Part shown: positions 3,611-37,893 of the stretch, piece after piece
How the letters are laid out: every line of letters starts with the position of its first letter
How positions within the stretch are numbered: position 1 is the first letter of the stretch
From: Bacteroidaceae bacterium
Lineage (GTDB): Bacteria > Bacteroidota > Bacteroidia > Bacteroidales > Bacteroidaceae
DNA length: 42,449 nucleotides
Direction: 5' to 3'
Assembly: GCA_017447625.1 (NCBI GenBank)
Contig: JAFSNB010000006.1
Coordinates: forward strand, 1 to 42,449
Program-made: the position numbers and the translations under genes
Notes under the pieces: model-generated
The model's input: the letters and a program-made list of their open reading frames with translations, nothing else
What the model was told of the DNA's origin: nothing
Databases searched by the model: none

Positions 3611-3658
3611 AAGGTTATAAGGTTGTGAGGTTATGAGGTTGTGAGGTTGTGAGGTTAT
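3611..3658. repeat. 8-bp tandem array overlapping a stop codon
   Basis: Six copies of the 8-mer (g/a)aggtt(g/a)t run without interruption between leuB and the rhamnogalacturonan lyase. The last copy contains the lyase stop codon (tta at 3655-3657, read as TAA on the minus strand). Confidence 0.9.
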
Positions 3659-6600
3659 TTTACAGTTACTTTCTGACCTGCCACGACATAGACGCCGGGC
3701 TTGAGGCTGCGGCGGGCGCGCTGGTAATTGCGAGCCACCTGACGGCCGGAGAGGTCAAAGACAGGACCGTTGAACTCATCCAAAGACTGCGCATTCACGT
3801 CGCGGATTGCGTCAGGCACCTGATTGGTGACACGAAGAACGCCCTTTGTGGCCAGTTCGGAATCGTCCCAGAAGAGGCCAGCCTCGGCATTGATTACCTT
3901 GGACGCAAGCACTGGGGTTCCGGCGAAGGTGGTCACATCCTGGAAGAGTGTTATTTCGTCTCCGACAGCAGGCTGCCACGAATCGGAGATAATGATCTCT
4001 ATCGTTCCGTTCATGGTCAGTTTGCTGATGTTATTCAGAGTGGTATAGCTCTTTGAAGAGGTGATGCCAAGCTGAACGGTGGCTCCCTTTGATATCGTAA
4101 CGGCCTTGCCGCCGAAATTGATTTTACCTGTAGTGGATGTTACGGTAGAACCGACCTGAAGCGTAGATCCGGAGGAGAATGAATAACTGCTGTTTGTCAA
4201 AGCGCCCGTGCCGGTAACGCCGCTCAGTGTGGCATTCTTCTTCACGGTGAGCGTGCCGGTGCCGAGTTTTACGGTATTGCCGCTGATATGCAGTTCGCCG
4301 GCCTCAACGATTGTGTTACCGGTGTAGTCGTGAGCACCAGTGAGGCTTACCTTGCCGCTGCCAGTCTTGGTGAAGTTCGAGTTGTGCGTTATCGTGCCCT
4401 TCCAAGACCAGTTGGTGTCGTTACCCAACTTCCAGGTGTTCTGTCCGCTGCCGCCGTTATTGCTGAAAGAGGCAAAACCGCCCAGTTTACCGTTGCCGGA
4501 GACTTTACCGATAGCGAATGTCTTACCTGTGTTCAGTACGGTTGTGTTGTCGGCAATGTTCAGTGTACCCTTTGGCATTCCGGATTGGGCGTCCAGAGTC
4601 CAGCGCGGATCGGGATCCTTACTGCTGCTGCCTACGGCGTTGATTGTGCCCTCGAAGGCGCTGAAGTCATCGGAAATCGAAGTGCGGGTGGCGTACCAAC
4701 CGGAGCCTTCGACCACCGGGCAGTTGATGGTGAGCGTTCCTTCGCCTGTAATCTTGTTGGAATAGCCAGCGTTGTTGACCAAGGTCTGGGTGCCGCTCTT
4801 GCCCTTAGGAATATCGATTGTGTAGGACGAGCCTCCGTTCTCAAGCAGGGTGCCAGCCTGGAACTCTACAGTCTTGGCAGGTGTGTTACAGCTGATACAC
4901 TGTACCGTACCGGCGGCAATTACCAGACGTGTGACTGTGTTGTTCACGTTCAGTTTCATCCACCCGTTGCCCTTCTTCGTAAGCTTTGTGCCGCCTATGG
5001 GCTTATTGACCACAAAGTCGCCTGCGTTATTGATTACACCGCCGTCGGCAGTCACCATCTGCATCGGAGAGCCCTGAGTGATGACACCACTGGTCTGCAG
5101 CTCGGCCCCGTTCTCAATTATGAAACGGCTGGCAGTTGATGTTACGCCGCCGAGCTGGCCGTAAGCCTGATTCTCATTACTGAGTAAGGTAACGACAACC
5201 GTACCTCCGCTGATGCGGGTTCCGCCTGTGTAAGTGTTGTCTGTGTTTATAGTCAGTTTGCCGGAGCCGCGCTTCACCAGTTTGGTATTGCCGACCAAGG
5301 CTCCTCTGCCGCTGAAGGTGAAATTCTTTGAGCCGTCAATGATGACGCTGTCGGGCTCGAGATTTCCCTTCAAGGTGATGCTCGCCTTCGTTGCATCGTC
5401 GTTGAAGGTAACGACATCACCCGTAACGAAGTACTCGCTCGTGGCTGTTGCATCGGAAGCGAGTGTGAAGTTCTCACTCTGACCGAAGTCCCAAAGGTTG
5501 CTTGAGTTACCGTTCCAAACAATATATCCGGCCTCACGCACATCCTCAACAACGAGATACAAGTTACCGTCGTCAAGCGAAAGGGTGGCTTTTTTACTCG
5601 TTCCGAGGCCCTCAATGATAATGTTCGAGAGGCTGCCCGTAAGTTTCTCTACGGAACCAAGCAGATAACGGCCATTAGTGGGAACTGCCTGATTTCCGAT
5701 ATTGAATTCAAAGACTGGGGATAGATACTTGGGGCCATAAGCCCAGTTCTTTATTTCAATGGTCAAAGCCTTTGTGACAATCCGGTCGGCGGTTATATCC
5801 GAAGTGAGGTCGAAGACCACGCGGCTGCCAAAGCCCAGTTTGAGGGTGTCGGCGGTCAAAACGCCAATCACGCCTTCGCCTGCAGGGCGGATTGTTGAGT
5901 TGTAGTCTGCCTTAATGCTGCGGAACGTACCCTTTGAATTCAGCGAGGTGTGGCGGTTGAGCCAGAGTGGAGAGTTCAGAAGCGTGCCGTCGAAGGTGAG
6001 TGTGCCGTTCCAGACGTCGGTGTTGCCTGAGTGGTTCATAGCCACAGCGGGAAGGATAAGCTCACCCTCGCCCTGCTTGACAAGACGGGTCGCACCGGCA
6101 AAGCCGCCACCGGAGGCAGTACACTTGTAATAAGTAAAGGTGGGAGCTGTCGTAGTGCTAACTTCAGACGGGTTATTACCCTGAACCCAAGCGGGGACGT
6201 TGAAGATAACCACCCAAGGCTCTGCGCCGTCGGTGATGGTTACGGTGTTATCGGCGTTCTCATAAACCAGAACCTGTTTGCCGTCCAAGTTCTTGCCAAT
6301 AGTGCCGCCCTTGGCGATTAGCTCGCGGCCTGTAGTGGTGAGCGAGGGAGGTGCGGCTGTGATGCCTTCAAGCTCTCCGAGGAAGAAGCTGGGGTGAGGC
6401 GGCTGGTTATAACCGATAGTCTCCCATACCATACCCTGCCGATAACCATGATCGTGCCAGAGAGACGGGATTCGGAAAGTAGTCGGGCGGGAAGTGGTAT
6501 AGAGTCGCATACCGGTGCCGTTGGCAACAAGCAGTTCCTCGCGCCAGTCGCCGAGGATATCACCCGTCAGGCAGGCGTTGTTCTTTGAGTCGTTGTTCAG

Positions 6601-8235: not shown

Positions 8236-8271
8236 AGTTGTCGTGTTGTTAAATACTTAATATTTTGCGGC

Positions 8272-8279
8272 CAAAGATA
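8272..8279 (-). promoter_or_regulatory. Candidate -7 element of the rhamnogalacturonan lyase gene
   Basis: The minus strand reads TATCTTTG, matching the Bacteroidetes TAnnTTTG element, 36 bp upstream of the lyase ATG. No clean TTTG -33 element sits at the right spacing. Confidence 0.5.
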
Positions 8280-8360
8280 GGCATTTTTCATTAAAACAAT
8301 CGTTATTATTTGGCTATTAACAAAATTTTGCTTTACTTCGCGCCATCAAAACGCATAAAT

Positions 8361-8969: not shown

Positions 8970-8979
8970 CAGAGTTCTC

Positions 8980-9627: not shown

Positions 9628-9634
9628 TGGTTTT

Positions 9635-9662
9635 CTAATCTTTAATCTTTAATCTCTAATCT
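9635..9662. repeat. 7-bp tandem array overlapping a stop codon
   Basis: Four copies of the 7-mer (c/t)taatct. The last copy contains the acyltransferase stop (cta at 9656-9658, read as TAG), and its final Asp codon is also inside the array. Confidence 0.9.
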
Positions 9663-10846
9663 TTTACCGCCTTTTCCTGATTGAACACTGGATTCGCATA
9701 CATGGTCAATATGCGCTCCGTAAGGAATTCCGTGTCGGGATTCGGGAGGTCGATGAGTGAGAGGCGTTGTGCCAAATACTTCTCAAAGGCCTCAACGTCG
9801 GCTGCCGTGTATCTATCCGAGCGGGCAGATGTTCCGTCAAGTCGGTCGGCAGCGATGTAATTAAACGGATAGAGGCGGTAAGAGCGGTGTATTTCTCGGT
9901 CAATATGACGTGCAACAGCGGAGTAGATTTCGCCGCGCGGCATATCGTCAGGCAGGGTATCAATCCACTCGTCTATACACGGAGCGGCCTCGAAGTGGAT
10001 GCGGCCCTTGGCGCCGAAGATACCAGTCTGCATATTCACCAAATCGTCCTCACGGCTCTTTTTGAAGCCTTCGATGTCACGCTTCTGCTGAAACTCCTTG
10101 GCTTTGAGGAAATCGCAAGGGTCTAACTCGTAACTGAGGGCCATCGGCACAATGTGCATGTCTTTCAGACGTTCTTTTATACTGCCTTCAGCACCCATAG
10201 CCATCATCTTCAGGATTGCATCCTGTGTGCAGTCGTTGCTGTCCTTGGCACGTCCCTCGCGCTGAGCTATCCAGATATTCTCGTGCTTCTCGTTAATGGC
10301 GAAATGCATGTAACGGCTCATAACGGCACTGGCGGCAAAGGCCTGACGCGGCGGCAGTGAGCGCTGCACAATGAAGCTCTTGTTGATGCGAGCCAGTTTC
10401 TTTATCCACGGGTAAATGAGCAGGTTATCACCGATGGCAATCTCCACTGTGGTCTGAAAGCCGTTCTCAATAAGCAGACAACTGAGGAAAGCCGAGTCCA
10501 AGACTATGTCCCGATGATTCGTCACAAATGTGTAATTACGCTGACGGTCAAAACCTTCCGGCAGCGTAAGGTCTATCCCCTGACTGCACTTCTGGATGAT
10601 ATTCTTCAGAAGCGGATAGAAGAATGTTTTCTGAACATCCAGCGATGTCAACCCGGGCGCAGCAGATGAGGCAGACTGGGCAAGGAAGGCAGGCAGCTGC
10701 TTTGCCATTTCAGGGGCCACTTTCTGAACAATTTGTACAAACTGCTCGTCTGCCATCAGTTCATTAAATACCTGAGGTAACTCGTCAGGTGCATAAGGCC
10801 GTATGTCCTTAAACTCTTCGGGAATCTGTGAACTCAACATAACCAT
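9656..10846 (-). CDS. PlsC-type phospholipid/glycerolipid acyltransferase family protein
   Basis: This 396-residue protein resembles the Bacteroidetes group annotated as 1-acyl-sn-glycerol-3-phosphate acyltransferase, which would add the second acyl chain of phosphatidic acid at the inner membrane. Support comes from NHRDIVLDSAFL (H111 in the conserved NH), followed by AQREGRAKD, in the place of the FPEGTRS motif. The spacing from His to Asp is HX5D (H111-D117) rather than the textbook HX4D, so the exact substrate is uncertain. The N-terminal 90 residues are extra relative to compact PlsC proteins. A second ATG two codons later is an equally good start. It follows ddl on the same strand, separated by repeats and a palindrome. 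Confidence 0.75.
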   Translation of the reverse strand: MVMLSSQIPEEFKDIRPYAPDELPQVFNELMADEQFVQIVQKVAPEMAKQLPAFLAQSASSAAPGLTSLDVQKTFFYPLLKNIIQKCSQGIDLTLPEGFDRQRNYTFVTNHRDIVLDSAFLSCLLIENGFQTTVEIAIGDNLLIYPWIKKLARINKSFIVQRSLPPRQAFAASAVMSRYMHFAINEKHENIWIAQREGRAKDSNDCTQDAILKMMAMGAEGSIKERLKDMHIVPMALSYELDPCDFLKAKEFQQKRDIEGFKKSREDDLVNMQTGIFGAKGRIHFEAAPCIDEWIDTLPDDMPRGEIYSAVARHIDREIHRSYRLYPFNYIAADRLDGTSARSDRYTAADVEAFEKYLAQRLSLIDLPNPDTEFLTERILTMYANPVFNQEKAVKD

Positions 10847-10860
10847 AAGTCTATGACCAA

Positions 10861-10935
10861 TGTAAAATGTAGAATGTAAAATGTAGAATGCAGGCTGCGC
10901 GCAGCTATAAATCGTAAATTGTAAATCGTAAAATT
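10861..10935. repeat. Composite repeat: 7-bp arrays flanking a 12-bp palindrome
   Basis: 10861-10888 holds four 7-mers (tgtaaaa/tgtagaa). A perfect palindrome GCTGCGCGCAGC follows at 10894-10905, then an aaatcgt/aaattgt array to about 10935 that runs into the ddl stop codon (10934-10936). Confidence 0.85.
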
Positions 10936-12004
10936 AACGTAGTTTGTCCTCAATTATATCAGTCAGAACATCCTTGATATCCAGACCGGCGGCACGCACC
11001 TGCTGAGGGATAAAGCTTGTGGCCGTCATCCCCGGAGTTGTATTGATTTCCAGCATATTGATACGGTCATGTCCTTTGCCGTCCTCGCCCTGCACTTTGG
11101 TGATGATATAATCTATGCGGATTATGCCATAGCAACCAAGAATGTCATAGATTGTGCTCGTTATTAGGCTTACACGTTCGGCCAGATCATCGCTGATGCG
11201 AGCAGGCGTAATCTCCTCCACCTGACCCTTATATTTGGCATCGTAATCGAAGAACTCATTGTGGGTTACTACCTCTGTGATGGGGAATACGACACTCTTC
11301 TTTGAAGTCTTGTAACAGCCGCAAGTGATCTCTGTACCAGGCATAAAAGCCTCGACCATCACTTCCGAGCTCTCGTCCATAGCCTTGCGGATAGCGGGAC
11401 GCAGCTGATCCAAAGTCTTCACTTTTGTGACACCGAAGCTGGAACCGCCTGCATTAGGCTTCACGAAGCAAGGCAGACCGATGTGATTAACAATCTCATC
11501 GTCCGTCACCATGTCCTCGTGCCCCTGACGAACCACGAGACTCTCGGAAACGCTCACTCCGAATCCCTTCAGATATTGGTTCAGTGTGAACTTATTGAAT
11601 GTCATTGCCTCGATGAGTACGCTGCTGGTGCTATACGGCATCTTTATGAGGTCGAAATAGCCTTGCAGGATACCGTTCTCACCCGGAGTGCCGTGTATAG
11701 TGATATAGGCGAAATCGGGACGTATGCGACGGCCATCTACCTCGAAGGAGAAGTCTTCGCGGCTGACTTTTGCCTTACTGCCGTCTGCCAGATGAGCCTC
11801 CCATACGAGGCCTTTAATCTCCACGATATAAGCTTCATAGCGTTCCTTGTCGATGAAGGACATTATTCCTGCAGCCGAACGCAAACTTACATCATGTTCA
11901 GAGCTGTCGCCGCCACAGACTATGGCTATAATTGGGGAAGACCCTCCCCCCTGCCCCTCCCTTGTAGGGCGGGGAGTAGAATGAGTATGAATGGATGAGT
12001 CCAT
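10934..12004 (-). CDS. ddl: D-alanine--D-alanine ligase with repeat-encoded N-terminus
   Basis: This cytoplasmic ATP-grasp enzyme makes D-Ala-D-Ala for peptidoglycan. Family features are IAIVCGGDSSEHDVSLRSA near the N-terminus, FVKPNAGGSSFGV in the ATP-grasp region, VEAFMPGTEITCG, and MLEINTTPGMT near the C-terminus. Total length is 356 residues. The family normally starts a few residues before the IAIV strand. Here about 25 extra residues (MDSSIHTHSTPRPTREGQGG...) precede it, and their DNA (about 11937-11990) is a copy of a GC-rich repeat found in noncoding DNA at 33890-33935. No ATG, GTG or TTG lies in frame between 12004 and the conserved core, so the repeat appears to be translated. The gene sits downstream of rluD in the rpmH cluster. 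Confidence 0.92.
   Translation of the reverse strand: MDSSIHTHSTPRPTREGQGGGSSPIIAIVCGGDSSEHDVSLRSAAGIMSFIDKERYEAYIVEIKGLVWEAHLADGSKAKVSREDFSFEVDGRRIRPDFAYITIHGTPGENGILQGYFDLIKMPYSTSSVLIEAMTFNKFTLNQYLKGFGVSVSESLVVRQGHEDMVTDDEIVNHIGLPCFVKPNAGGSSFGVTKVKTLDQLRPAIRKAMDESSEVMVEAFMPGTEITCGCYKTSKKSVVFPITEVVTHNEFFDYDAKYKGQVEEITPARISDDLAERVSLITSTIYDILGCYGIIRIDYIITKVQGEDGKGHDRINMLEINTTPGMTATSFIPQQVRAAGLDIKDVLTDIIEDKLR
11937..11990. repeat. GC-rich hairpin repeat inside the 5' end of ddl
   Basis: On the minus strand it starts cattctactccccgcccta and can fold on its CCCC/GGGG blocks. It matches the copy at 33890-33935 (cattctgctccctccctt...) in order of blocks, with substitutions and small indels. Confidence 0.75.
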
Positions 12005-12021
12005 ATTATATTATTCAGTTA

Positions 12022-12071
12022 TACATTATACATTTTACATTGTACGTACGTACATTGTACATTGTACATTA
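12022..12071. repeat. 7-bp tacatt(g/a) array overlapping the rluD stop codon
   Basis: Six tacattN 7-mers are interrupted by two tacg 4-mers. The terminal copy contains the rluD stop (tta at 12069-12071). Confidence 0.88.
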
Positions 12072-13166
12072 TGATCTGTTTTTCCACTTTTCAATCAGTT
12101 GGGTCAAATCTGCGGGCAATTCGCTGGTAAAGTCCATTTCCTCACCTGTTCTCGGATGACGGAAGCCGAGTGTGCGGGCGTGTAAGGCCTGACGGGGACA
12201 GATTTCAAAGCAGTTATGGATAAACTGACGGTAGGTGCCAGTGGGCTGTCCGCGCAATATCTCCATCCCTCCATAACGCTCGTCGGCGAAAAGCGGATGT
12301 CCGATATGCTTCATGTGAGCACGAATCTGATGTGTGCGACCTGTCTCCAGCACACATTCAACCCACGTGACATAACCAAAGCGTTCCAGAACGCGCCAGT
12401 GGGTCACGGCGTGCTTACCCACCTCGCTGTCCGGCGGGAAGACCGCCATCCGCTGACGGTCGCGCGGATCACGGCCGATGTTGCCCTCTATGCGCCCCTC
12501 GTCCTGTTCGAAGTGTCCCCAGACCAGGGCGTTATATCTGCGGCGGGTGCTCTTCACGAAGAACTGATGGCAGAGGTCTGTCTTTGCCTCCGGTGTCTTA
12601 GCGATAAGCAGCAGGCCACTCGTGTCCTTGTCTATGCGATGAACCAGCCCCACGCTTGGGTCGTTTGGGTCATACGATGGCATATCTCTCAGATGCCAGG
12701 CTATGGCATTCACCAGAGTACCGTGGTAATTACCGCAGCCCGGATGCACAACCAAGCCAGCCGGTTTATTTATGACCATAAGGTCGTTGTCCTCATATAC
12801 CACATCAAGCGGAATATCCTCCGGCTCAACCTCGAACTCAATACGAGGATGGTCAAGCTTGAGAGTCACAACGTCCAGCGGTTTCACCTTGTAGTTGCTC
12901 TTCACCGGGCGGTCGTTCACGAATATACAACCGGCCTCAGCTGCCCGTTGGATACGGTTACGACTGGTATCGCGCAGGTGATCCAGCAGGAACTTGTCCA
13001 CACGCAACGGCTCTTGCCCCTTGTCCGCCACTACGCGGCGGTGTTCATAAAGAGCAGACGACGGCTCCAGCTCGTCGCCCAAGTCGTCGTCAAGGTCGGC
13101 ATAAAGCTCCGTGTCAGCGCCGTCAGCCGGTGCTGCGCCAAGCTTTATGTCAAATCTCTCGTCCAT
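12069..13166 (-). CDS. rluD: RluD-family 23S rRNA pseudouridine synthase
   Basis: This 365-residue protein converts uridines of large-subunit rRNA to pseudouridine. An S4 RNA-binding domain spans about residues 52-115 (LRVDKFLLDHLRDTSRNRIQRA). The catalytic domain follows, with VINKPAGLVVHPG and the RluA/RluD signature HRIDKDTSGLL, catalytic Asp179, then RRYNALVWG and ETGRTHQIRAHM. The first 45 residues are acidic and outside the usual family length. It lies 9 bp downstream of the PASTA gene and is followed by ddl, an order I recall as common in Bacteroidales. Whether it modifies the RluD sites or those of RluC/RluA cannot be read from sequence alone. Confidence 0.9.
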   Translation of the reverse strand: MDERFDIKLGAAPADGADTELYADLDDDLGDELEPSSALYEHRRVVADKGQEPLRVDKFLLDHLRDTSRNRIQRAAEAGCIFVNDRPVKSNYKVKPLDVVTLKLDHPRIEFEVEPEDIPLDVVYEDNDLMVINKPAGLVVHPGCGNYHGTLVNAIAWHLRDMPSYDPNDPSVGLVHRIDKDTSGLLLIAKTPEAKTDLCHQFFVKSTRRRYNALVWGHFEQDEGRIEGNIGRDPRDRQRMAVFPPDSEVGKHAVTHWRVLERFGYVTWVECVLETGRTHQIRAHMKHIGHPLFADERYGGMEILRGQPTGTYRQFIHNCFEICPRQALHARTLGFRHPRTGEEMDFTSELPADLTQLIEKWKNRS

Positions 13167-13175
13167 TGTGTGTTG

Positions 13176-18180: not shown

Positions 18181-18238
18181 GCATACCCCATGGAGGCTTA
18201 TAGTGGGCCTTTACTCTTTTGGGGCAGGACATTCGTCC

Positions 18239-18292
18239 CTTTAACTTCCTTTCAAATCCCCTTCAATTCCCTTTAACTTCCCTTTAACTTCA
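18239..18292. repeat. 12-bp ccctttaacttc array overlapping the mrp stop codon
   Basis: About four degenerate copies of ccctttaacttc run up to the mrp gene. The last copy provides the Thr-Ser codons and stop (tca at 18290-18292, read TGA). Confidence 0.85.
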
Positions 18293-22475: not shown

Positions 22476-23492
22476 TTACTTCTTGTTCAGAGCGAGGTCA
22501 ATAGCAACGGCAATGGCTACGGTTGCGCCAACCATCGGGTTGTTGCCGATGCCGAGGAAGCCCATCATCTCCACGTGTGCGGGAACGGAGCTTGAACCGG
22601 CGAACTGAGCATCGCTGTGCATACGGCCGAGAGTGTCGGTCATACCGTAGGAAGCGGGACCGGCTGCCATGTTATCGGGATGCAGCGTGCGGCCTGTGCC
22701 ACCACCTGAAGCTACGCTGAAGTAGGGCTTGCCAGCGAGTACGCGCTCCTTCTTGTAGGTGCCGGCCACGGGGTGCTGGAAGCGTGTGGGGTTGGTGCTG
22801 TTGCCAGTGATGGAAACATCCACGTTCTCGTGCCAGAGGATAGCAACGCCCTCACGAACGTCGTCAGCGCCGTAGCACTTAACTTTCAGACGGCTGGGGT
22901 TCTTGCCGTAAGGCACTTCCTTCACAATCTTCAGCTCAGAGGTGTAGTAGTCGAACTGAGTCTGCACGTATGTGAAGCCGTTGATTCGGCTGATAATCTG
23001 TGCAGCGTCCTTGCCCAGACCGTTGAGGATAACGCGGAGTGGCTTCTGGCGAACCTTGTTAGCCATCTCGGCAATCTTGATGGCACCCTCGGCAGCAGCG
23101 AAGCTCTCGTGTCCTGCGAGGAAGGCGAAGCACTCTGTCTCTTCGCGCAGCAGACGGGCAGCGAGGTTACCGTGGCCGATACCGACCTTACGGTCGTCAG
23201 CCACAGAACCGGGAATGCAGAAGCTCTGCAGGCCGATACCGATGGCCTCGGCTGCGTCGGCAGCTGTCTTCACGCCCTTCTTGATGGCGATAGCGGCACC
23301 GCAAACGTATGCCCACTTGGCGTTCTCAAAGCAGATGCGCTGTGTGTCCTCACACATCTGGTAGGGATCAACGCCTGCCTTTTCACAAATCTCGTTGGCC
23401 TCTTCAATACTGTTGATGCCATTCTCTTTCAGAGCTGCCAGAACCTGATTGATGCGGCGCTCCTGACTCTCGAAATATACTTTTCTAATCAT
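22476..23492 (-). CDS. GGGtGRT family protein
   Basis: The 338-residue protein has the name-giving motif GGGTGRT at residues 263-269 within YFSVASGGGTGRTLHPDNMA, followed by TLGRMHSDAQFAGSSSVPAHVEMMGFLGIGNNPMVGATVA, which identifies the family. There is no signal peptide or membrane segment. Several conserved-looking Cys occur early (residues 35, 47 and 54 region: ANEICEKAG, PYQMCEDTQRICFE, WAYVCGAA), which could bind metal or be redox active. Function is unknown. It lies 91 bp downstream of a NifU-like scaffold gene on the same strand, an association I recall as common in anaerobic Bacteroidales, pointing to Fe-S or cofactor chemistry. Confidence 0.85.
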   Translation of the reverse strand: MIRKVYFESQERRINQVLAALKENGINSIEEANEICEKAGVDPYQMCEDTQRICFENAKWAYVCGAAIAIKKGVKTAADAAEAIGIGLQSFCIPGSVADDRKVGIGHGNLAARLLREETECFAFLAGHESFAAAEGAIKIAEMANKVRQKPLRVILNGLGKDAAQIISRINGFTYVQTQFDYYTSELKIVKEVPYGKNPSRLKVKCYGADDVREGVAILWHENVDVSITGNSTNPTRFQHPVAGTYKKERVLAGKPYFSVASGGGTGRTLHPDNMAAGPASYGMTDTLGRMHSDAQFAGSSSVPAHVEMMGFLGIGNNPMVGATVAIAVAIDLALNKK

Positions 23493-23496
23493 AGTT

Positions 23497-23580
23497 TAAT
23501 TTGACGATTTTACGATTTTACAATTTTAAGATTCTGATCTTTCAATTTGTCCAATTGTTCAACGGTGAAATTGTTCAATT
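23497..23580. repeat. tttacgat array between the two genes of the GGGtGRT operon
   Basis: tttgacgattttacgattt-type units are followed by an imperfect dyad (caatttgtccaattg ... gaaattgttcaatt). The array separates otherwise cotranscribed genes and could act as an mRNA processing or differential-expression site, but this is only inferred from position. Confidence 0.65.
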
Positions 23581-25863: not shown

Positions 25864-25924
25864 GTTTAAGGGGTTTAAGAGTTTAAAGGGTTTAAGGGGT
25901 TTAAGAGTTTAAGGGGTTTAAGAG
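25864..25924. repeat. 9-bp gtttaag(g/a)g array supplying the pump stop codon
   Basis: About seven degenerate copies of gtttaaggg/gtttaagag. The RND pump stop (tta at 25918-25920) is inside the last copy. Confidence 0.88.
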
Positions 25925-28900
25925 AGTCCCCCCACCGGGGGGATTGAGGGGGGCCTCTCCCCACCGGGGGGATTGAGGGGGGCCTCTCCCTGAAATCGCT
26001 CATGCAGTCTCTGGAATACGATGAAGAACGCGGGAACAACGAAGAGCAGGGCAATGGTGCCTATGCTCATGCCGCCAATGACTCCCAGCGCAAGGGCGCG
26101 GTTACCGTTGGCACCGGCTCCACCCTCTATAACGAGGGGTATCATACCAATAATCATCGTGAGGACGGTCATCAGAATCGGGCGCAGGCGCTCCTTACAA
26201 GCCTCGAAGGCTGCTTCGGGGATGCTCAAGCCCTGTGCGCGGCGCTCGGAAGCGAACTCCGTGATGAGGATGGCTGTTTTGGCCAAGAGGCCGATGAGCA
26301 TAATAACACCCGTCTGCAGGTAGATATTGTTGTCCATGCCCGGAATCTGATACTTGTAGCCAATAAAGGCAAACACGAAGGCACCCATCAGTCCGAAGGG
26401 CACACTGAAGAGCACAGCCCACGGTGTGAACCATGAGTTGTAGAGCGAAGCCAGGATGAGATAGATAAGGATAGCGCACACGAGGTAGATGATGGCCGTG
26501 GCATTGGAACCGGAAGCTTCCTCCAACTCACGCGACATGCCGCTGTACTCATAGCTGGCAGTTGCGGGCATCTCTTCCTTGAACACCTCGGCAATAACCT
26601 TGTGGACGTCGCCCTCGGTGTAGCCGTTGCCCGGAGTCACGTAGCAGGTGATGCTCTGGAACAGGTTGAAGTGTTCAATGTTGGAAGGACCAACAATCTG
26701 CTTCAGAGAGACGAACTCAGAGATGGGGGCCATCTTGCCGCCCTTCACCTGCATGAAGATGTTCTGCAGTGACTGCGGGTCGAGGCGGTATTCGGGCGAG
26801 GCGGCGGCCATGATGCGATAAACCTTGCCGAACTGGTTGAAGTTGCCGATGTAAGCGCCACCGCAGTAGGCGCCAAGCGTGTTGAGCACATCGGCGGGCG
26901 ACACTCCAGCACGGTCGCACTGTGACGCATCGACATCGACCTGATACTTGGGGAATCGCTCCGAGTAGGTAGACATAGCAGAGGCTATTTCCGGACGCTC
27001 AGACAGCTTTGCCATGAAGCGCTCCGTCTGGCGGGCAAATTCAGAGAGATTGCCATCGGTGGGATCCTCCACAACGAGGTTGATGTCGTTGCTCGTACCG
27101 TAGCCGGGAATCTGCGGCATCACGAAGGGGACAACCACCAGTTCCTTGATGTCATTACAGTCCATGACGAAACGCTCTGCTACGAAGGCGAGCATGTGGT
27201 CTATACCCTCGCGCTCGTCCCAGTTCTTCAGGCGCACAACCATCGTGGCGTAGTTGGAACCGGCACCCGTAAGCATAGCGTAGCCGCAGCTTACGGCATA
27301 GCTCTCCAGCTCAGGTATCTTCTTCACCTTTTCCTCCACTTTCTTCACAATCTCGCGGGTCTGCTTCAGCGTGGTACCCTCGGGGGCGTGAATCTCAACG
27401 AGGAACACGCCCTGGTCCTCCTGAGGCACGAGGCCTGAGGGCAGGCTCTTCATGAAGAACACGAGAAGCCCGGCTGCTACGGCCAGCAGCACCCACGAGA
27501 ATATGGGGCGTTTGATGAATTTCCGCACAGCACCGCTGTATTTGTTGGAGATGGCGTTGTAACTCACCTCGTAAGCTTTCTTTGTGTAATAGGTGAGGCT
27601 CTTGCCGGATTCTTTGCCCTCCGTCACGCGCATCATGATGGCGCAGAGCGCCGGGCAGAGCGTGAGAGCCGAAATGCAAGACAGACCCACTGACGAGGCT
27701 ATCGTGACGCCGAACTGAGTGAAGAACGTGCCCGATGTGCCTGGCATGAACATCACGGGAACAAACACAGCCATGAAGACCAGGGTACATGAGACCACAG
27801 CCACCGACACCTCATTCATGGCCTGGCGAGTAGCCTCGCGGGCATCCGAGATGCCGTTCTCCATCTTCGCCATGACAGCCTCAACCACCACGATGGCATC
27901 ATCCACTACCGTACCGATAGCCAGCACCAGCGCGAACAGTGTCAAGATGTTCAGCGAGAAGCCTGCCATCTTGACGATGGCGAAGGTACCAAGCAGCGAC
28001 ACAATGATGGAGATGGACGGGATAAGCGTGGCCTTGAAATTCTGAAGGAAGAAGAACACCACCAGAATCACGAGTATGACGGCAATGACAAGCGTCTCTA
28101 TCACGTTGTGGAAGGCGGCGAAAAGGAAGTCGTCGCTGGTCATCAGCGTCACGAATTCAATTCCCGCAGGCATCGTCTGCTTCATCTCCTCAAACGTCTT
28201 GTTGATGCTGGCGTTCACCTCCGTGGCGTTGGCACCCGGAGCAGCAAACACCAGGAACATGGCGCCCGGACGGTCCATGATGCTAGACGTAAAGTTGTAG
28301 CTCATGGCACCTATCTTCACCTCAGCCACATCGCTCAGATGGAGCAGATGGCCTCCGTCGCTGGTGCGCACAACGATGTCGTTGAACTCCTCAACCGTCT
28401 TCAGTGTGCCCTTATACTGCATGGAGTACTGGTATGAGTTCTCCGACTGCTCACCCAGTGAACCCACTGCCGCCACGAAGCTCTGCCCGCCGATGGCGGC
28501 GAAGATGTCGTTGGGCGTAAGTCCGTATTGGGCCATTACATCGGGCTTCATCCAAATGCGAAGGGCATAGGTGTTACCGAAACTCTGCACGTTACCAACG
28601 CCGGTGATACGCATCAGGCGCGGCTTAACGTTGATATCGACATAGTTTGACACGAAGTCCTCATCGTACTTGCCGTCGGAGCTGCGCACGGCAAAAATCT
28701 GCAGGATGTTATTCTGGCGCTTCTCCACTTTCACGCCGACCTTGTTCACATCGGCCGGCAGCAGGGCCTGCGCGCGGCTAACGCGGTTCTGCACGTTCAC
28801 AGTTGCCATGTCCGGGTCGGTGCCTTGCTTGAAATAAACATTGATTTCCACAGAACCGTCGGACGACGCCTTGGAGGTCATGTAAGTCATGTCTGTCACA

Positions 28901-30268: not shown

Positions 30269-30311
30269 GTTTTAGGCTTTATTTCTTAAGTTTGATTGCT
30301 CTTTGTGGGCG

Positions 30312-30319
30312 CAAAGATA
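30312..30319 (-). promoter_or_regulatory. Candidate -7 element of the efflux operon
   Basis: The minus strand reads TATCTTTG, 43 bp upstream of the adaptor ATG. A -33 TTTG at the right distance is not evident. Confidence 0.5.
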
Positions 30320-30414
30320 CAATAATTTAGATAAAAGAGAAAAGAGAAGGATGAAAAATGAAAATTGACACAAAAATTCCCTACGGCCGTGAGCAAGTTG
30401 TCGGGATTTTATTG

Positions 30415-30454
30415 TACTTTTGCCGCAGAAAACGATAACGATAACGATAACGAT
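30415..30454 (+). promoter_or_regulatory. -7 element and 6-bp repeat leader of the C_GCAxxG gene
   Basis: TACTTTTG (30415-30422) is a candidate -7 box. It is followed by four perfect AACGAT hexamers (30431-30454) that end 5 bp before the ATG at 30460, so the mRNA leader would consist almost only of this repeat. Confidence 0.65.
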
Positions 30455-30459
30455 AAATT

Positions 30460-30942
30460 ATGAGTGACAAGGAATTGGATGAGCGCGTGGCTCGGGCTGT
30501 GGATAACTTCATGGCGGGCTATGGCTGCTGTCAGAGTGTGGTGGCAGCGTTCGCAGATATCTACGGGCTGGACGAAGTGATGGCCAAGCGCATCGCGGCG
30601 GGTTTCGGCGGCGGCGTGGGCCGTCTGCGTATGATGTGCGGCGCGGTGTCGGGCATAGTGATGCTCGTGGGACTGGAGTGCGGACAGACAGAAGGAAGCG
30701 ACCGCGCCGGGAAGTCGGCCTGCTACAAGGTGGTGCAGGAACTTCTGGCACGGTCGGAACGTGAGAACGGCAGTCTTATCTGTGCAGAAATCTTAGGGCT
30801 GAACGGGCACGACAAGGCTCATTGTACCTACGAGGCTTCGCCCCGCACAGCTGAGTACTACAAGACGCGGCCCTGCGCTGCTAAAGTGGAAAGCGCTGCA
30901 CGGATTTTCGCCGACTACCTTAAATCAATTCATAATTCATAA
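30460..30942 (+). CDS. C_GCAxxG_C_C family protein
   Basis: The 160-residue protein shows the family cysteine pattern: GYGCCQSVVAAF (C23, C24), then GFGGGVGRLRMMCGAVSGIVMLVGLECG with the CGAxxG core, then LICAEILGL and a final RPCAAKV. There is no lipoprotein lipobox or convincing signal peptide. The family is thought to be redox-active or metal-binding because of its conserved Cys set; its role is not established. The last residues SIHNS and the stop codon (30940-30942) are encoded by an attcata-type 7-bp array, so the native C-terminus probably ended near FADYLK. Confidence 0.85.
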   Translation: MSDKELDERVARAVDNFMAGYGCCQSVVAAFADIYGLDEVMAKRIAAGFGGGVGRLRMMCGAVSGIVMLVGLECGQTEGSDRAGKSACYKVVQELLARSERENGSLICAEILGLNGHDKAHCTYEASPRTAEYYKTRPCAAKVESAARIFADYLKSIHNS

Positions 30943-31180
30943 TGCATAATACATAATTTGCTGCGCGATGCTTTTGTTTTTTTACATGTAATTACCACGA
31001 GATTTGTCGCAGACCCACGACCTTGGAGTAATTTGTCCATATATTAATGATAAATTAACGGGTTAATTAATGGCAATTAATGTTGAAGATTTAAATCCGT
31101 TGAATCCGCGTAATCCGTTGTTTGAATTATTGCGGTGCGCAGCTCAATTATGCATTAAGAATTAAGAATTAAGAATTATG
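30928..31180. repeat. Composite intergenic repeat element with inverted ends, copy 1
   Basis: The left end has attcataatgcataat-type units then GCTGCGCGATGC (30960-30971). The right end has the same modules inverted: TGCGCAGC then aattatgcattaagaatt units. Inside lie ACATGTAATTACC (30984-30996), a 30-bp core (30997-31026) shared exactly with 37714-37743, an AT-rich ttaatgataaattaa stretch and AATCCGTT-type units (31094-31121). Its two ends supply the stop codons of both flanking genes (30940-30942 and 31169-31171). Confidence 0.75.
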
Positions 31181-32122
31181 CATTAGTCTGAGTTCTTCGC
31201 CCACATACTCCAGTTCGGCGATCTTGACGCTGCGGAGCCAGGTGCGGCCGCCGGAGGGAACGCTGTCGTGGTGTAGGAGGAAGACGCGACCGCGCCATTC
31301 AACTATGCTGTGGTGGGTGGTCCAGCCTACTACGGGCTGAAGCAGCTCACCGCGGAAGCGGAAGGGGCCGTAGGGCGAACGACTGGTGGCGTAGCAGAGC
31401 AGATGAGAGTCGCCTGTGGAATAGCTGAAATAATAGATGCCGTTGTGCTTGTGCAGCCACGATGCCTCGAAGAATCGGTGCGGGTCGTCGGCACGCAGGG
31501 GTTGGCCGTTGTCGTCAGTGATGATGACGGGACGGGGCTCCTCGGCAAACTGGGTGACATCCTCAGTCATACGGACCACACGTGAGGGCAGAGCGGGCTC
31601 TGCTCCCTCGGGCAAGATGGCGCTCTCCAGAGCTTTGTTATCGCGATAACGCTGCAACTGACCGCCCCACAAGCCGCCGAAATAGACATAGACCTCGCCG
31701 TCGTCGTCCTTGAAGGCGCAGGGGTCGATGCTGTAACTGCCGCGAATGGGGTCAGCGAGCGGTTTGAACGGGCCTGCGGGTGTGTCGCTTACGGCAACGC
31801 CGAGACGGAAGATGTCGGTCTGATCCTTGAGGCAGTAGATGAGGTAGTACTTACCGTTCTTCTCCACGACATCGTTGTCCCAGAGCTGGCGTCCGTGCCA
31901 GGGGATTTCGTCTTTATCCAGAACGCAGCCGAGGTCTTTTGCCTCTAACTGGTCGGGGTCGTCGAGACAGAGCACGTGGTAGTCGCGCATGTCGAAGTGG
32001 TCGCCGTTGTCATTCTCGGGGATTCCACTCTCGCGGTCGTGTGACGGATAGATGTAAAGGCGGTCGCCAAAGACGTGACCCGAGGGGTCCGCCATGTAAT
32101 CGGATGGAAATAGGTAACGCAT
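31169..32122 (-). CDS. Cytoplasmic glycoside hydrolase family 43 enzyme
   Basis: The 317-residue five-bladed propeller enzyme has no signal peptide. GH43 catalytic residues are visible: base Asp12 in YMADPSGHV, the pKa-modulating Asp in YSIDPCAFKDDDG, and acid Glu219 in HRFFEASWLHKHNG. GH43 enzymes are mostly beta-xylosidases or alpha-L-arabinofuranosidases; which one applies cannot be decided here. It starts 81 bp downstream of a GPH sugar symporter on the same strand, so it probably hydrolyses imported oligosaccharides. The last residues LMHNS and the stop are encoded by an intergenic-type repeat. Confidence 0.88.
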   Translation of the reverse strand: MRYLFPSDYMADPSGHVFGDRLYIYPSHDRESGIPENDNGDHFDMRDYHVLCLDDPDQLEAKDLGCVLDKDEIPWHGRQLWDNDVVEKNGKYYLIYCLKDQTDIFRLGVAVSDTPAGPFKPLADPIRGSYSIDPCAFKDDDGEVYVYFGGLWGGQLQRYRDNKALESAILPEGAEPALPSRVVRMTEDVTQFAEEPRPVIITDDNGQPLRADDPHRFFEASWLHKHNGIYYFSYSTGDSHLLCYATSRSPYGPFRFRGELLQPVVGWTTHHSIVEWRGRVFLLHHDSVPSGGRTWLRSVKIAELEYVGEELRLMHNS

Positions 32123-32197
32123 AGATTGAATTTACGATTGGACTATTTACGATTTACTATTTATTTACGATTTTACGATTTTACATTTTACATTCTG
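32123..32197. repeat. tttacgat/tttacatt array between symporter and GH43
   Basis: Degenerate 7-8 bp units (tttacgatt, tttactatt, ttttacatt) fill the 81-bp gap between the two cotranscribed genes. Confidence 0.8.
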
Positions 32198-32203
32198 CAC
32201 AGA

Positions 32204-33622: not shown

Positions 33623-33946
33623 TGATTATTAGTTTTGATTGATTTTCGCTACAAAGGTATATGTTTTTGCGCAAACGACATTAAAGCCACGTCACAAACT
33701 GTTTTATTTTTGTCTCTTTTTCGCAAAAATGGACAATTTACATATAATATTCTAAGAATTTTGTGCTTGAGTTCAGAATTACTTTGTACATTTGCGGCGA
33801 TTATTGCAATTCTTAATTCATAATTTATAATGCATAATTAGGCTGCGCACAGCCTATAACCAAAGATATATAAAAACAACACTCGTCCTCATTCTGCTCC
33901 CTCCCTTCAGGGAGGGCGGGGGGAGAGTCCTCAAATTCACAATAAC
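33623..33946. promoter_or_regulatory. 324-bp divergent control region of the symporter and GH5-GH43 genes
   Basis: Leftward, CAAAGGTA (33652-33659) reads as TACCTTTG for the symporter. Rightward, TACATTTG (33787-33794) with TTTG at 33760-33763 (23 bp apart, slightly wide) fits the GH5-GH43 gene. Between them an AT-rich stretch (33690-33750) is the likely place for operators. After the rightward -7 come an attcata array (33814-33840), the palindrome-like GGCTGCGCACAGCC (33841-33854) and a GC hairpin (33899-33916), all of which would lie in the 5' leader of the GH5-GH43 mRNA. Confidence 0.6.
33814..33935. repeat. Composite repeat in the leader of the GH5-GH43 gene
   Basis: Order: attcata/atgcata units, GGCTGCGCACAGCC, then the GC-rich repeat with stem CCCTCCC (33899-33905) and GGGAGGG (33910-33916) closing a TTCA loop. 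The hairpin ends 30 bp before the ATG. Confidence 0.8.
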
Positions 33947-36900
33947 ATGAAACGAATCTTACTTTTGGCGGCGGTCGCAATTCTGACCTCCGTAACCTGG
34001 GCACAGATGAGCAAGCCTCTGCCTACGCTGCACGTCGAAGGCAAGTGGCTGGTGGACACCCACGGAAATCACGTCGTGCTGCACGGCGTAATGGACACAC
34101 CCAGCGCTTGGTTCAACGGCGGACGCTGGGGCTGGAGCTACGACGACGCCGGCCGTCAGCGCTGTCTCAACTACTTTGAGAAGATGTTCGCCGGATTCGA
34201 GAAGGCCCATTGCACCATCTTCCGTCTGCACTTGGAGCCAGCCTGGACCAACGACCCGTCGAGCAACTACAAATACTCGGTTGCTGCCGACCAGCCCGCT
34301 GGCATAAGCGGCGAGGCTGACATCTCGAAGTTCAACCCCACCCGACTGAAGACCTATCTCGGCAACCTTTACTTCCCCCTGATGCAGAAGGCCATGAACC
34401 ACGGACAGTATGTCGTGGTGCGCCCGCCGGGAGTATGCCCCCCGAACCTGAAGGTGGGCGACTACTATCAGCAGTATCTGTTGGAAGTCTGGGACATAGT
34501 CTCCAAGAACTCCAACATAAAGAAATACGCCGGACAGATCATGATTGAGCTGGCCAACGAGCCCATCAACGTCCGCAACGCCAGCAATCAGGACGACGCA
34601 AAGGCTCTGCATGACTACTTCCAGCCCATCGTGGACAAAATCCGCGAGAATGGCTTCACGGGTGTCATCTGGGTGCCCGGCACAGGCTATCAGTCCAACT
34701 ATAGAAGCTATGCTTCCTACCCCATCGAAGGTTACAATATCGGCTATGCTGTGCATGACTACTGCGGTTGGTACAACTGCAGCGATACCCACTGTAACCC
34801 GACGGACAAGATCCGCAACTTCGGCGAGGCCGTACCTGTGGTGAAAACCAACCCTATATTCATCAGCGAAGTGGACTGGAGCCCCGAAAAACAGCCGAAG
34901 GAGTTTGACAAACTGAATGAGCACGGTGATTCCGTGTTTAAGAACATGGGCACCTGGGCCACCGGCTCCACTTCTAAGTGGGGAAAGGCGTTCAAGGCCA
35001 CTCTAGACTACTACGGCAACATCTCCATGACTCTGACTCATCCTCACGACTTCCTTGAGATCGACACCCTGATTCAGAAAGGCAAGGTGATAGCCGCTTT
35101 TGGTGGTCACCCCGAGGCCTGCGCTCAGGCTTGTATGGAGTGGTATGCAGACTACTACACCAAAGACTGGGCACATCCCGACTTCAAGAACCTCTCCATG
35201 AGCGACTTGGGCACGGGCAAGTACCGCAACCCCGTCATCTTCGCCGACTTCCCCGATCCCGACGTGATTCGCGTTGATGACACCTATTATATGGTGACAA
35301 CGACGATGCACCATTTCCCCGGAGCAACCATAGTGAAGTCCAAGGATTTGGTCAACTGGGAGTACTGCGCACAGCCGCTGCTGCAACTGGCCGACAAGGA
35401 CCGCTACAACCTGCAGAACGGCGAGAACGCCTACGCCGCCGGCATGTGGGCCTGCTCTATGAAGTACCACAACGGCAAGTTCTATCTGCTCATCAACGGC
35501 AACGACACGGGCGGCTGGCTCCTCACCAGCAGCAACCCTGAAGGCACTTGGGAAAAGAAGAAACTCTCACGCATCTACTACGACCCGGGAATGCTCTTCG
35601 ATAATGGTAAGGTGTATGTAGCCTGCGGCATCGGCAACATCCAGATGTGCGAGCTTGATGCTAACTTCAACTTCATCCAGGAGAAGAACGTGATTAGCAA
35701 CAAGGACGGATTGGAAGGCTGCCACCTCTACAAGATCGGCGAATACTATTATATATATGCTACCTATGGAGGCTGGCCCAGCGGTCAGGCTATATTCCGC
35801 TCCAAGAACATCTTCGGCCCCTATGAGGAAAAGATGCTCGTGGAGAAAATCATTAACGACAAGCCAAACACCGTTCACCAGGGCGCACTCTTTGACACCC
35901 CGACGGGCGAGTGGTGGACCATCATGCAGGAAGATCTCGGCTGTTTCGGACGTATGCCAAATCTCCAGCCTGTAAAGTGGGAGGAGGACTGGCCCATAGT
36001 AGGCAACAAGGGTGTTCCTTACGCCACACACAACAAGCCCGATGTCGGAACCATTGTGCCGCGCGCCGCCATGCCTACGAACGACAATTTCCGCACCTAC
36101 CCGCTCGGTATGCAGTGGGAGTGGAATCATAATCCAGACGATGCCGCCTGGAGCCTGTTCGAGCGTCCGGGATGGTTGCGTCTGAGGGCATCCGGGTCCG
36201 CTACACGCCTCACTCAGGCTCGCAATATGCTGACCCAGCGCATCTTTGCCTTCCACGGGAAACCCAACCAGGCTTCAACTGGCACGGTGCGTCTTGATGT
36301 GTCTCATCTGGCAGAGGGCGACCGCGCCGGTATCTGCGTGTTCCAAGACCCGTATGCCGCCATCGCCGTAGAGGTGAAGAACGGGCAGAAGCAGCTCGTA
36401 TGGTGGCAGGATACCCTGCGCGTACGTTCGGACTTCCAGCCCTCTGAGCAGACTTTGGCTCTTGATATAGACAGCGTAATCTACCTCCGTGCCTCACAGA
36501 CATACGGCACCAGTAAGACAAAGTTCTACTACTCGTTAGACAACGAGACATACACCGAACTGGGAGGCGAGACCGAGCAGAGCTTCAGCCTCACCGTATT
36601 CGTGGGCTCGCGCTTCGGCATCTTCTGCTATGCCCAAGATCCCGACAAGACGGAGTCCTCATACGCCGACTTCGACTGGTTCAGCACCGAGGAGGACTAC
36701 GAGGAGACCAAGTACTATCCCGCCACCTTCGAAGGCTACAACGCAGAGATGCTAACGGCCACGCAGCTGACTGTGGGAGCTGAGGATATGGAGATTATGG
36801 TCGGCGGCGGCACACCGCTGCAGCTCACAGCCACCTTCGCCGACGGACACAAGAAGGACGTGTCGGCTCAGGCTAAATACACCTCCGATGCCGGCGACGA

Positions 36901-37612
36901 CATCATAGCCGTTCAGAGCGGACAGATCCGCGGCCTCAGAGAAGGCACCGCCACCGTAACCGCCTCATATACCGACCCGATGGGCAACGAGCTGAGCGCT
37001 TCGTTCAACGTGCGCAGCACCTTCTTCCCCTTCGCCAGTCAGTTCATCAACACCTCGCTCTTCTCCAACGGAACTTACAACGAGAGCACCCATGAGTTCA
37101 AGCCCGGACAGTACGGACAGATGGGCTGGGTATATAGTAACGGGGCCGACATGTCCGCCTACAAGTACTTGGTCGTCAAGCTCAAGAGACAGCAGACCTG
37201 TGGAGGAGATGTGAGAATCTACACGGACAACAGCATTTGGGGCAACTGCCATCAGACCACCGGCTTCGGCTCTTCCCGCAGGAAAATCATCAAGCTGCAG
37301 GAAGCCAAATACACCTCCGGCGACAAGAAAGGTCAGCCCTTAGAGCTGGACAACATCCGCATCATCGCCTTCTGGGGCAACGGCGGCGGCACGATAGTCG
37401 TTGACGACATGTATCTGACCAACAACGACGACTACTCGCCCAGCGGAGTTGAGGAAATTCATAATTCACAATTCACAATTCATAATGAGGCTGGCGCAGT
37501 GTATGACCTCAGCGGACGCAAAATAATGGTCAATGGTCAATGGTCAATGGTCAATGGGAATCTCCCGAAGGGAGTTTACATCGTGAACGGCCGCAAAGTC
37601 GTGAAGAAATAA
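33947..37612 (+). CDS. Secreted GH5-GH43 bifunctional glycosidase with T9SS-type tail
   Basis: The 1221-residue protein has a signal peptide (MKRILLLAAVAILTSVTWA). Residues about 25-400 are a GH5-type TIM barrel: acid/base Glu205 in ELANEP, nucleophile Glu308 in FISEVDW. Residues about 425-710 are a GH43 propeller starting NPVIFADFPDPDV with base Asp437. A beta-sandwich (about 720-930) resembles the C-terminal domain of GH43 xylosidases, followed by an Ig-like Big_2 domain (about 945-1025), a further beta domain, and a sorting tail VYDLSGRK...LPKGVYIVNGRKVVKK. It probably attacks xylan or arabinoxylan outside the cell (endo cut by GH5, side-chain or terminal trimming by GH43; inferred). Two 7-bp repeat arrays are translated within the tail region. 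Confidence 0.88.
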   Translation: MKRILLLAAVAILTSVTWAQMSKPLPTLHVEGKWLVDTHGNHVVLHGVMDTPSAWFNGGRWGWSYDDAGRQRCLNYFEKMFAGFEKAHCTIFRLHLEPAWTNDPSSNYKYSVAADQPAGISGEADISKFNPTRLKTYLGNLYFPLMQKAMNHGQYVVVRPPGVCPPNLKVGDYYQQYLLEVWDIVSKNSNIKKYAGQIMIELANEPINVRNASNQDDAKALHDYFQPIVDKIRENGFTGVIWVPGTGYQSNYRSYASYPIEGYNIGYAVHDYCGWYNCSDTHCNPTDKIRNFGEAVPVVKTNPIFISEVDWSPEKQPKEFDKLNEHGDSVFKNMGTWATGSTSKWGKAFKATLDYYGNISMTLTHPHDFLEIDTLIQKGKVIAAFGGHPEACAQACMEWYADYYTKDWAHPDFKNLSMSDLGTGKYRNPVIFADFPDPDVIRVDDTYYMVTTTMHHFPGATIVKSKDLVNWEYCAQPLLQLADKDRYNLQNGENAYAAGMWACSMKYHNGKFYLLINGNDTGGWLLTSSNPEGTWEKKKLSRIYYDPGMLFDNGKVYVACGIGNIQMCELDANFNFIQEKNVISNKDGLEGCHLYKIGEYYYIYATYGGWPSGQAIFRSKNIFGPYEEKMLVEKIINDKPNTVHQGALFDTPTGEWWTIMQEDLGCFGRMPNLQPVKWEEDWPIVGNKGVPYATHNKPDVGTIVPRAAMPTNDNFRTYPLGMQWEWNHNPDDAAWSLFERPGWLRLRASGSATRLTQARNMLTQRIFAFHGKPNQASTGTVRLDVSHLAEGDRAGICVFQDPYAAIAVEVKNGQKQLVWWQDTLRVRSDFQPSEQTLALDIDSVIYLRASQTYGTSKTKFYYSLDNETYTELGGETEQSFSLTVFVGSRFGIFCYAQDPDKTESSYADFDWFSTEEDYEETKYYPATFEGYNAEMLTATQLTVGAEDMEIMVGGGTPLQLTATFADGHKKDVSAQAKYTSDAGDDIIAVQSGQIRGLREGTATVTASYTDPMGNELSASFNVRSTFFPFASQFINTSLFSNGTYNESTHEFKPGQYGQMGWVYSNGADMSAYKYLVVKLKRQQTCGGDVRIYTDNSIWGNCHQTTGFGSSRRKIIKLQEAKYTSGDKKGQPLELDNIRIIAFWGNGGGTIVVDDMYLTNNDDYSPSGVEEIHNSQFTIHNEAGAVYDLSGRKIMVNGQWSMVNGNLPKGVYIVNGRKVVKK
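37457..37486. repeat. Translated attcata/attcaca 7-bp array before the sorting tail
   Basis: Four 7-mers plus two bases encode the IHNSQFTIHN peptide. Directly after comes gaggctggcgcag, the same order (array, then GGCTGxGC-CAG module) as the noncoding copy at 33814-33854. Confidence 0.9.
37525..37552. repeat. Translated aatggtc 7-bp array inside the sorting tail
   Basis: Four perfect AATGGTC units plus a partial fifth encode MVNGQWSMVNG between DLSGRKI and LPKGVYI, where such tails normally have a variable short loop. Confidence 0.9.
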
Positions 37613-37632
37613 CCCCAACAACCAATAACGAA

Positions 37633-37670
37633 ACAGGGCTGCGCCACTCTCCGGCACAGCCCTGTTTTTT
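37633..37670 (+). terminator. Intrinsic terminator of the GH5-GH43 gene
   Basis: ACAGGGCTG (37633-37641) pairs with CAGCCCTGT (37657-37665) and is followed by a run of T to 37670. Confidence 0.85.
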
Positions 37671-37678
37671 ATTCAAAC

Positions 37679-37893
37679 AACGGATTAAACGGATTAAACG
37701 GATTTATTCTAACACGAGATTTGTCGCAGACCCACGACCTTGGGAGTAATTACCACGAATTGAACACGAATGACCATAAATAAAATAATTAATGATAAAT
37801 TAATGGGAAATTAATGGTAATTACATGTGAAAAATCCAAAGCATCGCGCAGCCCTTAAATCGTTAAATTGTAAATCGTTAAATCGTCAAATCA
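37679..37893. repeat. Composite intergenic repeat element, copy 2 (rearranged)
   Basis: It contains aacggatta units (37679-37704), the 30-bp core shared with 30997-31026 (37714-37743), ttaatgataaattaa stretches, GGTAATTACATGT (37816-37828) and AAAGCATCGCGCAGC (37838-37852). The last two are exact reverse complements of modules of copy 1. An aaatcgt array follows and runs into the AraC stop codon (tca at 37891-37893). Confidence 0.8.

Follow-up and report, generated by a model that had tools for sequence, protein, structure and literature searches.

The window, a stretch of 42,449 bp, is contig C41 of a 2.56-Mb Bacteroidaceae assembly (G000; 46 contigs, 73% complete). Thirty-one genes were called in it, 30 of them with the stop inside the window, and Pfam agrees with the gene names that an earlier note on this DNA had given. 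The closest matches of the window ddl gene come from uncultured Bacteroidaceae and Prevotellaceae, many of them rumen-derived. No known RNA element was matched in the window at Rfam gathering scores. The earlier note had placed a short tandem array at the stop codons of nine genes, and Tandem Repeats Finder (TRF) recovers all nine: eight overlap the stop, and the array at ddl lies 1 nt off. Repeat units are imperfect in most TRF rows of the window. The arrays at the nine stops, together with a longer repeat in the RND gene and two array pairs inside coding sequence, are as follows, with arrays from TRF and gene families from Pfam.

3607-3658: 8-nt-unit array (AGGTTATG/AGGTTGTG), overlapping the stop (3655-3657) of a rhamnogalacturonan lyase family gene, minus strand
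9636-9664: 7-nt-unit array (TAATCTT), overlapping the stop (9656-9658) of an acyltransferase gene, minus strand
10859-10932: composite at ddl, made of array AATGTAA/AATGTAG (10859-10890), palindrome GCTGCGCGCAGC (10894-10905) and array TAAATCG (10908-10932), the last ending 1 nt short of the ddl stop (10934-10936), minus strand
12010-12072: 7-nt-unit array (ATTATAC, TACATTG variants), overlapping the stop (12069-12071) of an rluD-like pseudouridine synthase gene, minus strand
18236-18291: 11-nt-unit array (TCCCTTTAACT), overlapping the stop (18290-18292) of an mrp-like gene, minus strand
25864-25924: 9-nt-unit array (GTTTAAGGG), overlapping the stop (25918-25920) of an RND transporter gene, minus strand
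25930-25990: GC-rich tandem repeat with a 29-nt unit in 2.1 copies, within the final codons of the RND gene
30927-30958: 7-nt-unit array (AATTCAT), overlapping the stop (30940-30942) of a C_GCAxxG gene, plus strand
31146-31185: 7-nt-unit array (AATTAAG/AATTATG), overlapping the stop (31169-31171) of a GH43 gene, minus strand
37456-37557: arrays AATTCAC (37456-37486) and AATGGTC (37525-37557), near the end of the coding sequence of an open reading frame (33947-37612), plus strand
37855-37892: 7/8-nt-unit array (TTAAATCG), overlapping the stop (37891-37893) of an AraC-type regulator gene, minus strand
42032-42134: arrays CATAATG (42032-42059) and CTCTGTGTC (42097-42134), near the end of the coding sequence of an open reading frame (38990-42178), plus strand

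Three of the encoded proteins end beyond the reach of their best orthologue, which aligns only to residue 1045 of 1065 in the RND protein, to residue 156 of 160 in the C_GCAxxG protein and to residue 300 of 308 in the GH43 protein. For annotation, this means that the last 20, 4 and 8 residues, respectively, extend past the orthologue's alignment. Two near-identical copies of a 39-nt non-tandem repeat were also observed (30995-31033 and 37713-37751), in different spacers and each amid several arrays.

Our sample consists of 40 stretches of the same assembly together with the window, 840,449 bp and 617 genes in total. Genes were called with a hexamer-based caller and arrays with TRF, at a period of 5-15, a score of at least 40 and at least 2.5 copies. 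The 297 arrays found comprise 184 that are noncoding, 74 that straddle a gene edge and 39 inside genes; 258 are therefore not wholly within genes. An assembly artefact appears unlikely, given the short length of the arrays and their recurrence across many genomes that were assembled separately.

Repeat units and their families

Runs of at least 10 matches at a fixed lag describe the units of the noncoding DNA. They occur at 0-0.1 per 10 kb for lags 3-6, reach 7.15 at lag 7, continue at 3.85 (lag 8), 3.36 (lag 9), 1.64 (lag 10) and 1.75 (lag 11), and fall to 0.21 at lag 12 and 0 at lag 13; the 7.73 at lag 14 represents two units of 7. The lag-7 density compares with 0.23 in coding DNA and 0.1 in shuffled sequence, where values are 0-0.1 overall. 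Period 7 is the commonest class and lies mainly outside genes, as in heptanucleotide repeats, and period 9 is also common (48 mostly noncoding TRF rows). Loci from relatives likewise peak at lag 7. Eight Bacteroides loci (82.6 kb) gave no run at lags 3-11, a sample too small to prove absence.

The earlier note described the units as differing and unrelated. They do differ, with 33 distinct heptads among the 118 period-7 noncoding arrays of the sample, but they are not all unrelated. The unit carries AAT on one strand in 98 of these 118 arrays, where shuffled units give 73.1 (sd 4.7). For 68% of array bases, the noncoding DNA of the sample contains two or more similar copies at other places. 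The apparently unrelated units are therefore a set of recurring families.

These families were followed through 81 genomes of the genus with exact 19-nt patterns (2.7 units), for which overlapping matches count units rather than arrays. The GAATGAC family is present in 8 of the 81 genomes, with up to 34 matches, and is absent from G000. CATTGAA is found in 28 genomes, including 79 matches in G000 and 97 in G080, and AATTCAT in 42, with up to 50 matches. G059, the genome with the best-matching ddl and mrp genes, lacks all three. Reversed-pattern controls returned zero except for 4 matches in G059, 1 in G070 and 2 in G055. The unit families come in lineage-specific bursts. On contig C1 of G000, at about 23335-23535, a CATTGAA run of about 200 nt with short breaks goes far beyond the typical array length.

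Families also differ in how they are oriented. In tandem spacers, AAATCGT arrays away from stops are forward in 16 cases and reverse in none (1 and 2 among those touching a stop), whereas other families, AATTCAT among them (12 and 12), are balanced.

The 39 arrays within genes are found more often in the last fifth of the gene (17) than in the first (4), and in 18 of the 39 the period is not divisible by three. The unit families of the junction arrays are also translated near protein C-termini, both in the window and at two other places in the sample (C35, 176139; C25, 27573). AATGGTC arrays end 18 codons before the end of three genes, where they are read, in a stop-free orientation, as MVNGQ-type repeats. 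This site, 18 codons from the gene end, may be a secretion-signal domain of type IX secretion.

Stop codons and the geometry of gene junctions

Across the sample, an array touches 61 of 613 stops. Uniform placement predicts 9.8, and array centres spread uniformly over noncoding bases predict 34.0, a null under which none of 200 shuffles reaches 61. Starts are touched in 20 of 607 cases, against 9.5 under uniform placement and 28.3 under the noncoding null, and the outcome for stops and starts is the same under two other array definitions. Relatives show a weaker enrichment in the same direction. After near-duplicates were dropped, leaving 74 of 80 ddl loci and 107 of 116 other loci, arrays touched 17 of 737 stops at ddl loci (11.6 expected; 7 of 200 shuffles reach 17) and 26 of 316 at the other loci (15.7 expected; 0 of 200 shuffles reach 26). 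The window itself is richer than the rest of the sample (8 of 30 stops against 53 of 583; Fisher p 0.006). The earlier note had judged nine of about 31 genes to be beyond chance; the excess is confirmed, but the sample-wide rate is about 10% rather than 29%.

Orthologous stops in relatives mostly lack an array. Distinct 3' contexts were counted for seven window genes, excluding orthologues below 65% identity, those whose gene end was not reached and those too near a contig end. Arrays were observed at 3 of 95 rluD stops, 6 of 98 for ddl, 0 of 8 for the acyltransferase, 1 of 28 for mrp, 0 of 19 for C_GCAxxG, 7 of 22 for RND and 0 of 12 for GH43, so that 17 of 282 stops carry an array and 265 do not. 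Where an array is present, the unit is often another one: the seven RND orthologue arrays represent five units, all different from that of the window gene (L220, L225 and L227 share one), and the six ddl arrays also represent five, with one shared by L145 and L146. RND orthologues with a touching array end 4-10 residues past position 1043 of the window protein, and those without one end 0-28 residues past it, with a mode of 6 (7 of 15). At ddl, 50 of 86 array-free orthologues end exactly at the conserved last residue, and in many relatives among the matches listed the gene overlaps the start of the next, with no spacer. Two sister RND arrays (L232 and L237) are related and differ in length by 14 nt, or two units, the one case of whole-unit copy-number change that we observe.

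At the ddl-acyltransferase junction of L145, a GC-rich segment stands between AATTCAT-type arrays of opposite orientation, forming a long potential stem. A GC-rich palindromic dispersed repeat with many matches in the genome lies at window 11931-12041, where the long ddl reading frame has its first codons; in several relatives (L046-L051) the rluD stop, too, falls within a related palindrome.

Array edges in tandem spacers form two concentrations, one at the stop (-5 to +10 nt) and one 5-10 nt ahead of the following start, which implies that many arrays fill the spacer. Tandem spacers of at least 20 nt that carry a touching array (n=49) have a median length of 104 nt and a median non-repeat residue of 23 nt, compared with 71 nt for array-free spacers of that class (n=176). 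We built a junction-aware null on this geometry. Arrays are placed evenly over the native junction, taken as the length of the array-bearing spacer minus its arrays, or minus arrays and dispersed repeats, plus the last 6-12 nt of the gene (2-4 codons). This null predicts a stop-touching array in 35-61 of 135 tandem spacers, where 49 were observed, and in 4.2-8.6 of 18 convergent spacers, where 6 were observed. The 6-12 nt tolerance was chosen from a 0-30 nt range and not derived from genome-wide data; the expectation for tandem spacers is 20-41 at 0 nt and 63-76 at 30 nt. A cruder insertion simulation over array-free spacers matches the observed count (61 of 258 arrays) only at a tolerance of 60 nt, and the array edges it then predicts are more spread than those observed. 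Only the junction-aware null removes the stop excess; the cruder nulls leave one. Once the space available at junctions is taken into account in this way, at 6-12 nt tolerance, stops are no longer enriched, and the earlier note's proposal of preferential placement at 3' ends is not needed.

The reading we favor, with a probability of about 0.7, is that dispersed AT-rich families are filtered by what genes tolerate, and that stops are places where arrays are tolerated and reset the frame rather than targets. Several dispersed families of short AT-rich tandem repeats, with units of 7-11 nt and mostly 7, would arise or spread in lineage-specific bursts, and their arrays would change in length by whole units. 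We infer slippage or unequal recombination as the copying process, slippage from the L232/L237 pair and from 7-nt indels described in the available part of a published account (PMC4679880). Selection would then act as a filter on position, with arrays persisting mainly where they do little harm, at gene junctions and in the last few codons. Many junctions that bear arrays contain so little other DNA that any array there is forced up against the upstream stop or across it. The AT-rich composition of the units means that TAA, TAG or TGA occurs in nearly all of them, on one strand or both, and an array just inside a 3' end would for this reason usually close the frame within itself and create a new stop. 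Small gaps and repeats rich in stop signals would thus explain why arrays so often end the adjoining gene.

Some observations count against this explanation. Single arrays in spacers that have 60-400 nt of other sequence still lie close to the stop, at -14 to +10, in 17 of 39 cases; the 60-nt simulation spreads edges too widely; the model gives no account of the 16:0 orientation bias of AAATCGT arrays away from stops; and, whatever the residual-length bin, 19-48% of tandem spacers contain an array.

Alternative readings

The first of these observations, along with the excess over the noncoding-uniform null and the tightness of the edges around the stop relative to the simulation, would be expected if arrays were made or inserted preferentially at gene ends, with the stop neighborhood as target or seed, as the earlier note proposed. 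We consider this unlikely, since no targeting is required once the junction-aware null tolerates 2-4 codons, and array edges concentrate before starts too. Moreover, 39 of the 297 arrays are inside genes, the same unit families also occur in mid-spacer and just upstream of starts, and convergent spacers show no clear excess over the junction-aware null.

The stop triplets themselves could instead be the reason for the arrays. As functional stop or spacer elements selected behind genes, units with a period of 7 or 8 would give stops in all frames and insulate neighboring genes. Stop triplets are indeed favored in the sense orientation, in arrays that touch a stop (33 against 11) and in those away from it (71 against 45), and the published TAACTGA repeats, in the part of that account available to us, supply stops in all frames (PMC4679880). 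However, a stop triplet on at least one strand is present in 112 of 118 heptad units against 105.5 (sd 2.3) for shuffled units, which is close to the expectation from composition, and touching a stop itself selects stop-bearing orientations. The A/T skew of arrays beside stops (39 against 12) can be read in the same manner, as stop contact alone favors TAA-bearing orientations. The common period of 9 cannot cover all frames by one triplet, and the 265 array-free orthologous stops also speak against a selected element, which leaves this reading doubtful at best. The idea that an A-rich sense strand lets arrays act on starts found no support, as the skew within 15 nt of starts is not significant (34 against 22, p 0.14).

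A further alternative takes the gene junction, and not the base, as the substrate. Array density falls from 65 arrays per kb in the shortest residual-length bin to 0.6 in the longest, and even insertion per base does not predict the near-constant share of array-bearing junctions. A copying process acting on the transcribed, untranslated gap between stop and start could lay down 7-11-nt tandem copies, hardly ever shorter ones, from a lineage-specific repertoire of units. If this were so, its signatures would be the sharp 7-nt lower limit and the near-constant share of array-bearing junctions at any length. We offer this as a long shot.

Palindromes accompany some arrays. The 12-nt palindrome GCTGCGCGCAGC links two arrays of different families at window 10894-10905 and at places in contigs C35, C43 and C14, and these composites look as if arrays had paired around the palindrome. 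The sample holds 53 noncoding GCTGCGC/GCGCAGC motifs (a full palindrome counts as two), enough to qualify as a dispersed extragenic palindrome. Transport of the arrays with such a REP-like element, mobilized by a REP-associated Y1 transposase, would account for these links and for the placement of 39 of the 53 motifs no more than 25 nt from an array, in a zone that contains 7.1% of noncoding bases. We regard it as very improbable. A motif half occurs within 32 nt of only 53 of the 247 spacer arrays, and PF01797, the Y1 transposase family, has no match in G000 (73% complete) or G059, nor in the genomes richest in matches for each of the three unit families (G005, G062 and G080). PF01797 is matched in 31 of the 81 genomes of the genus. 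With no match in these array-rich genomes, and within the limits set by incomplete assemblies, the present data do not require a Y1 transposase as the mover.

Under the favored reading of tolerated, dispersed families, short repeats in this clade of gut Bacteroidaceae rewrite the stop codons and tails of genes as well as the spacers of operons. The junction-aware null provides a fairer model for claims that repeats target gene ends. The analysis also isolates two puzzles, namely why the lower limit of unit length is so sharp at 7 nt and why arrays go per junction and not per base.

Comparison with known repeat systems

We found no report of the arrays of this Bacteroidaceae clade in the open-licence papers searched. 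Related repeats have been described elsewhere, and the comparisons below draw on the available portions of the cited papers. The TAACTGA heptanucleotide direct repeats of Beggiatoaceae, Cyanobacteria and five Bacteroidetes are tandem and mostly intergenic; 13 sets overlap the stop of the upstream gene and many lie just before a start (MacGregor 2015, PMC4679880). Their length differs in 7-nt steps, by a mechanism not established in the text available, and related heptamers are seldom repeated (PMC4679880). Like these repeats, the arrays described here are mostly intergenic, with heptads the commonest class; some overlap stops, some lie before starts, and one related pair differs in length by whole units. 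Unlike that system, which has one unit sequence, they are imperfect, have periods of 7-11, form palindrome-joined composites and share no single conserved unit, as the 33 distinct heptads demonstrate.

The G-rich heptads GGGAATC and GGGGA(C/T)T of Xanthomonas and Nostoc lie between co-oriented open reading frames and are under-represented in genes and between divergent frames (Rehm 2015, PMC4692102). They occur near stops, some overlapping them, and at different genes in two related species; they form quadruplexes, with one family per genome (PMC4692102). The present arrays resemble them as heptads between genes, some at or over stops, with most orthologous sites not shared, but are AT-rich and belong to many families.

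In a general survey of long simple sequence repeats with units of 5-11 nt, heptanucleotides were the most abundant class in most genomes (Mrazek 2007, via PMC4679880 and PMC4692102). The survey is also cited for the proposal that heptads slip in connection with a polymerase contact of 7 nt (Mrazek 2007, as described in PMC4679880). Heptads lead here too, but multi-family bursts at gene junctions, as in the present clade, do not feature in the available descriptions of that survey. Borg tandem repeats evolve fast, form independently and occur in spacers and genes, some beginning at the end of an open reading frame; their units are perfect, of 18-21 nt in the examples available, in regions of at least 50 nt, and within open reading frames always divisible by three (PMC9879509). 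Our arrays share their rapid turnover and their presence in both spacers and genes, but the short, imperfect units and the 18 of 39 coding arrays with periods not divisible by three set them apart from the Borg type.

The earlier note knew of no described mechanism for such repeats. None is established, but slippage has been proposed, and heptads overlapping stops are already in print, each from a single family (PMC4679880, PMC4692102). As far as those accounts extend, the arrays of this clade are a multi-family version of the known intergenic heptanucleotide repeats already reported to overlap stop codons.
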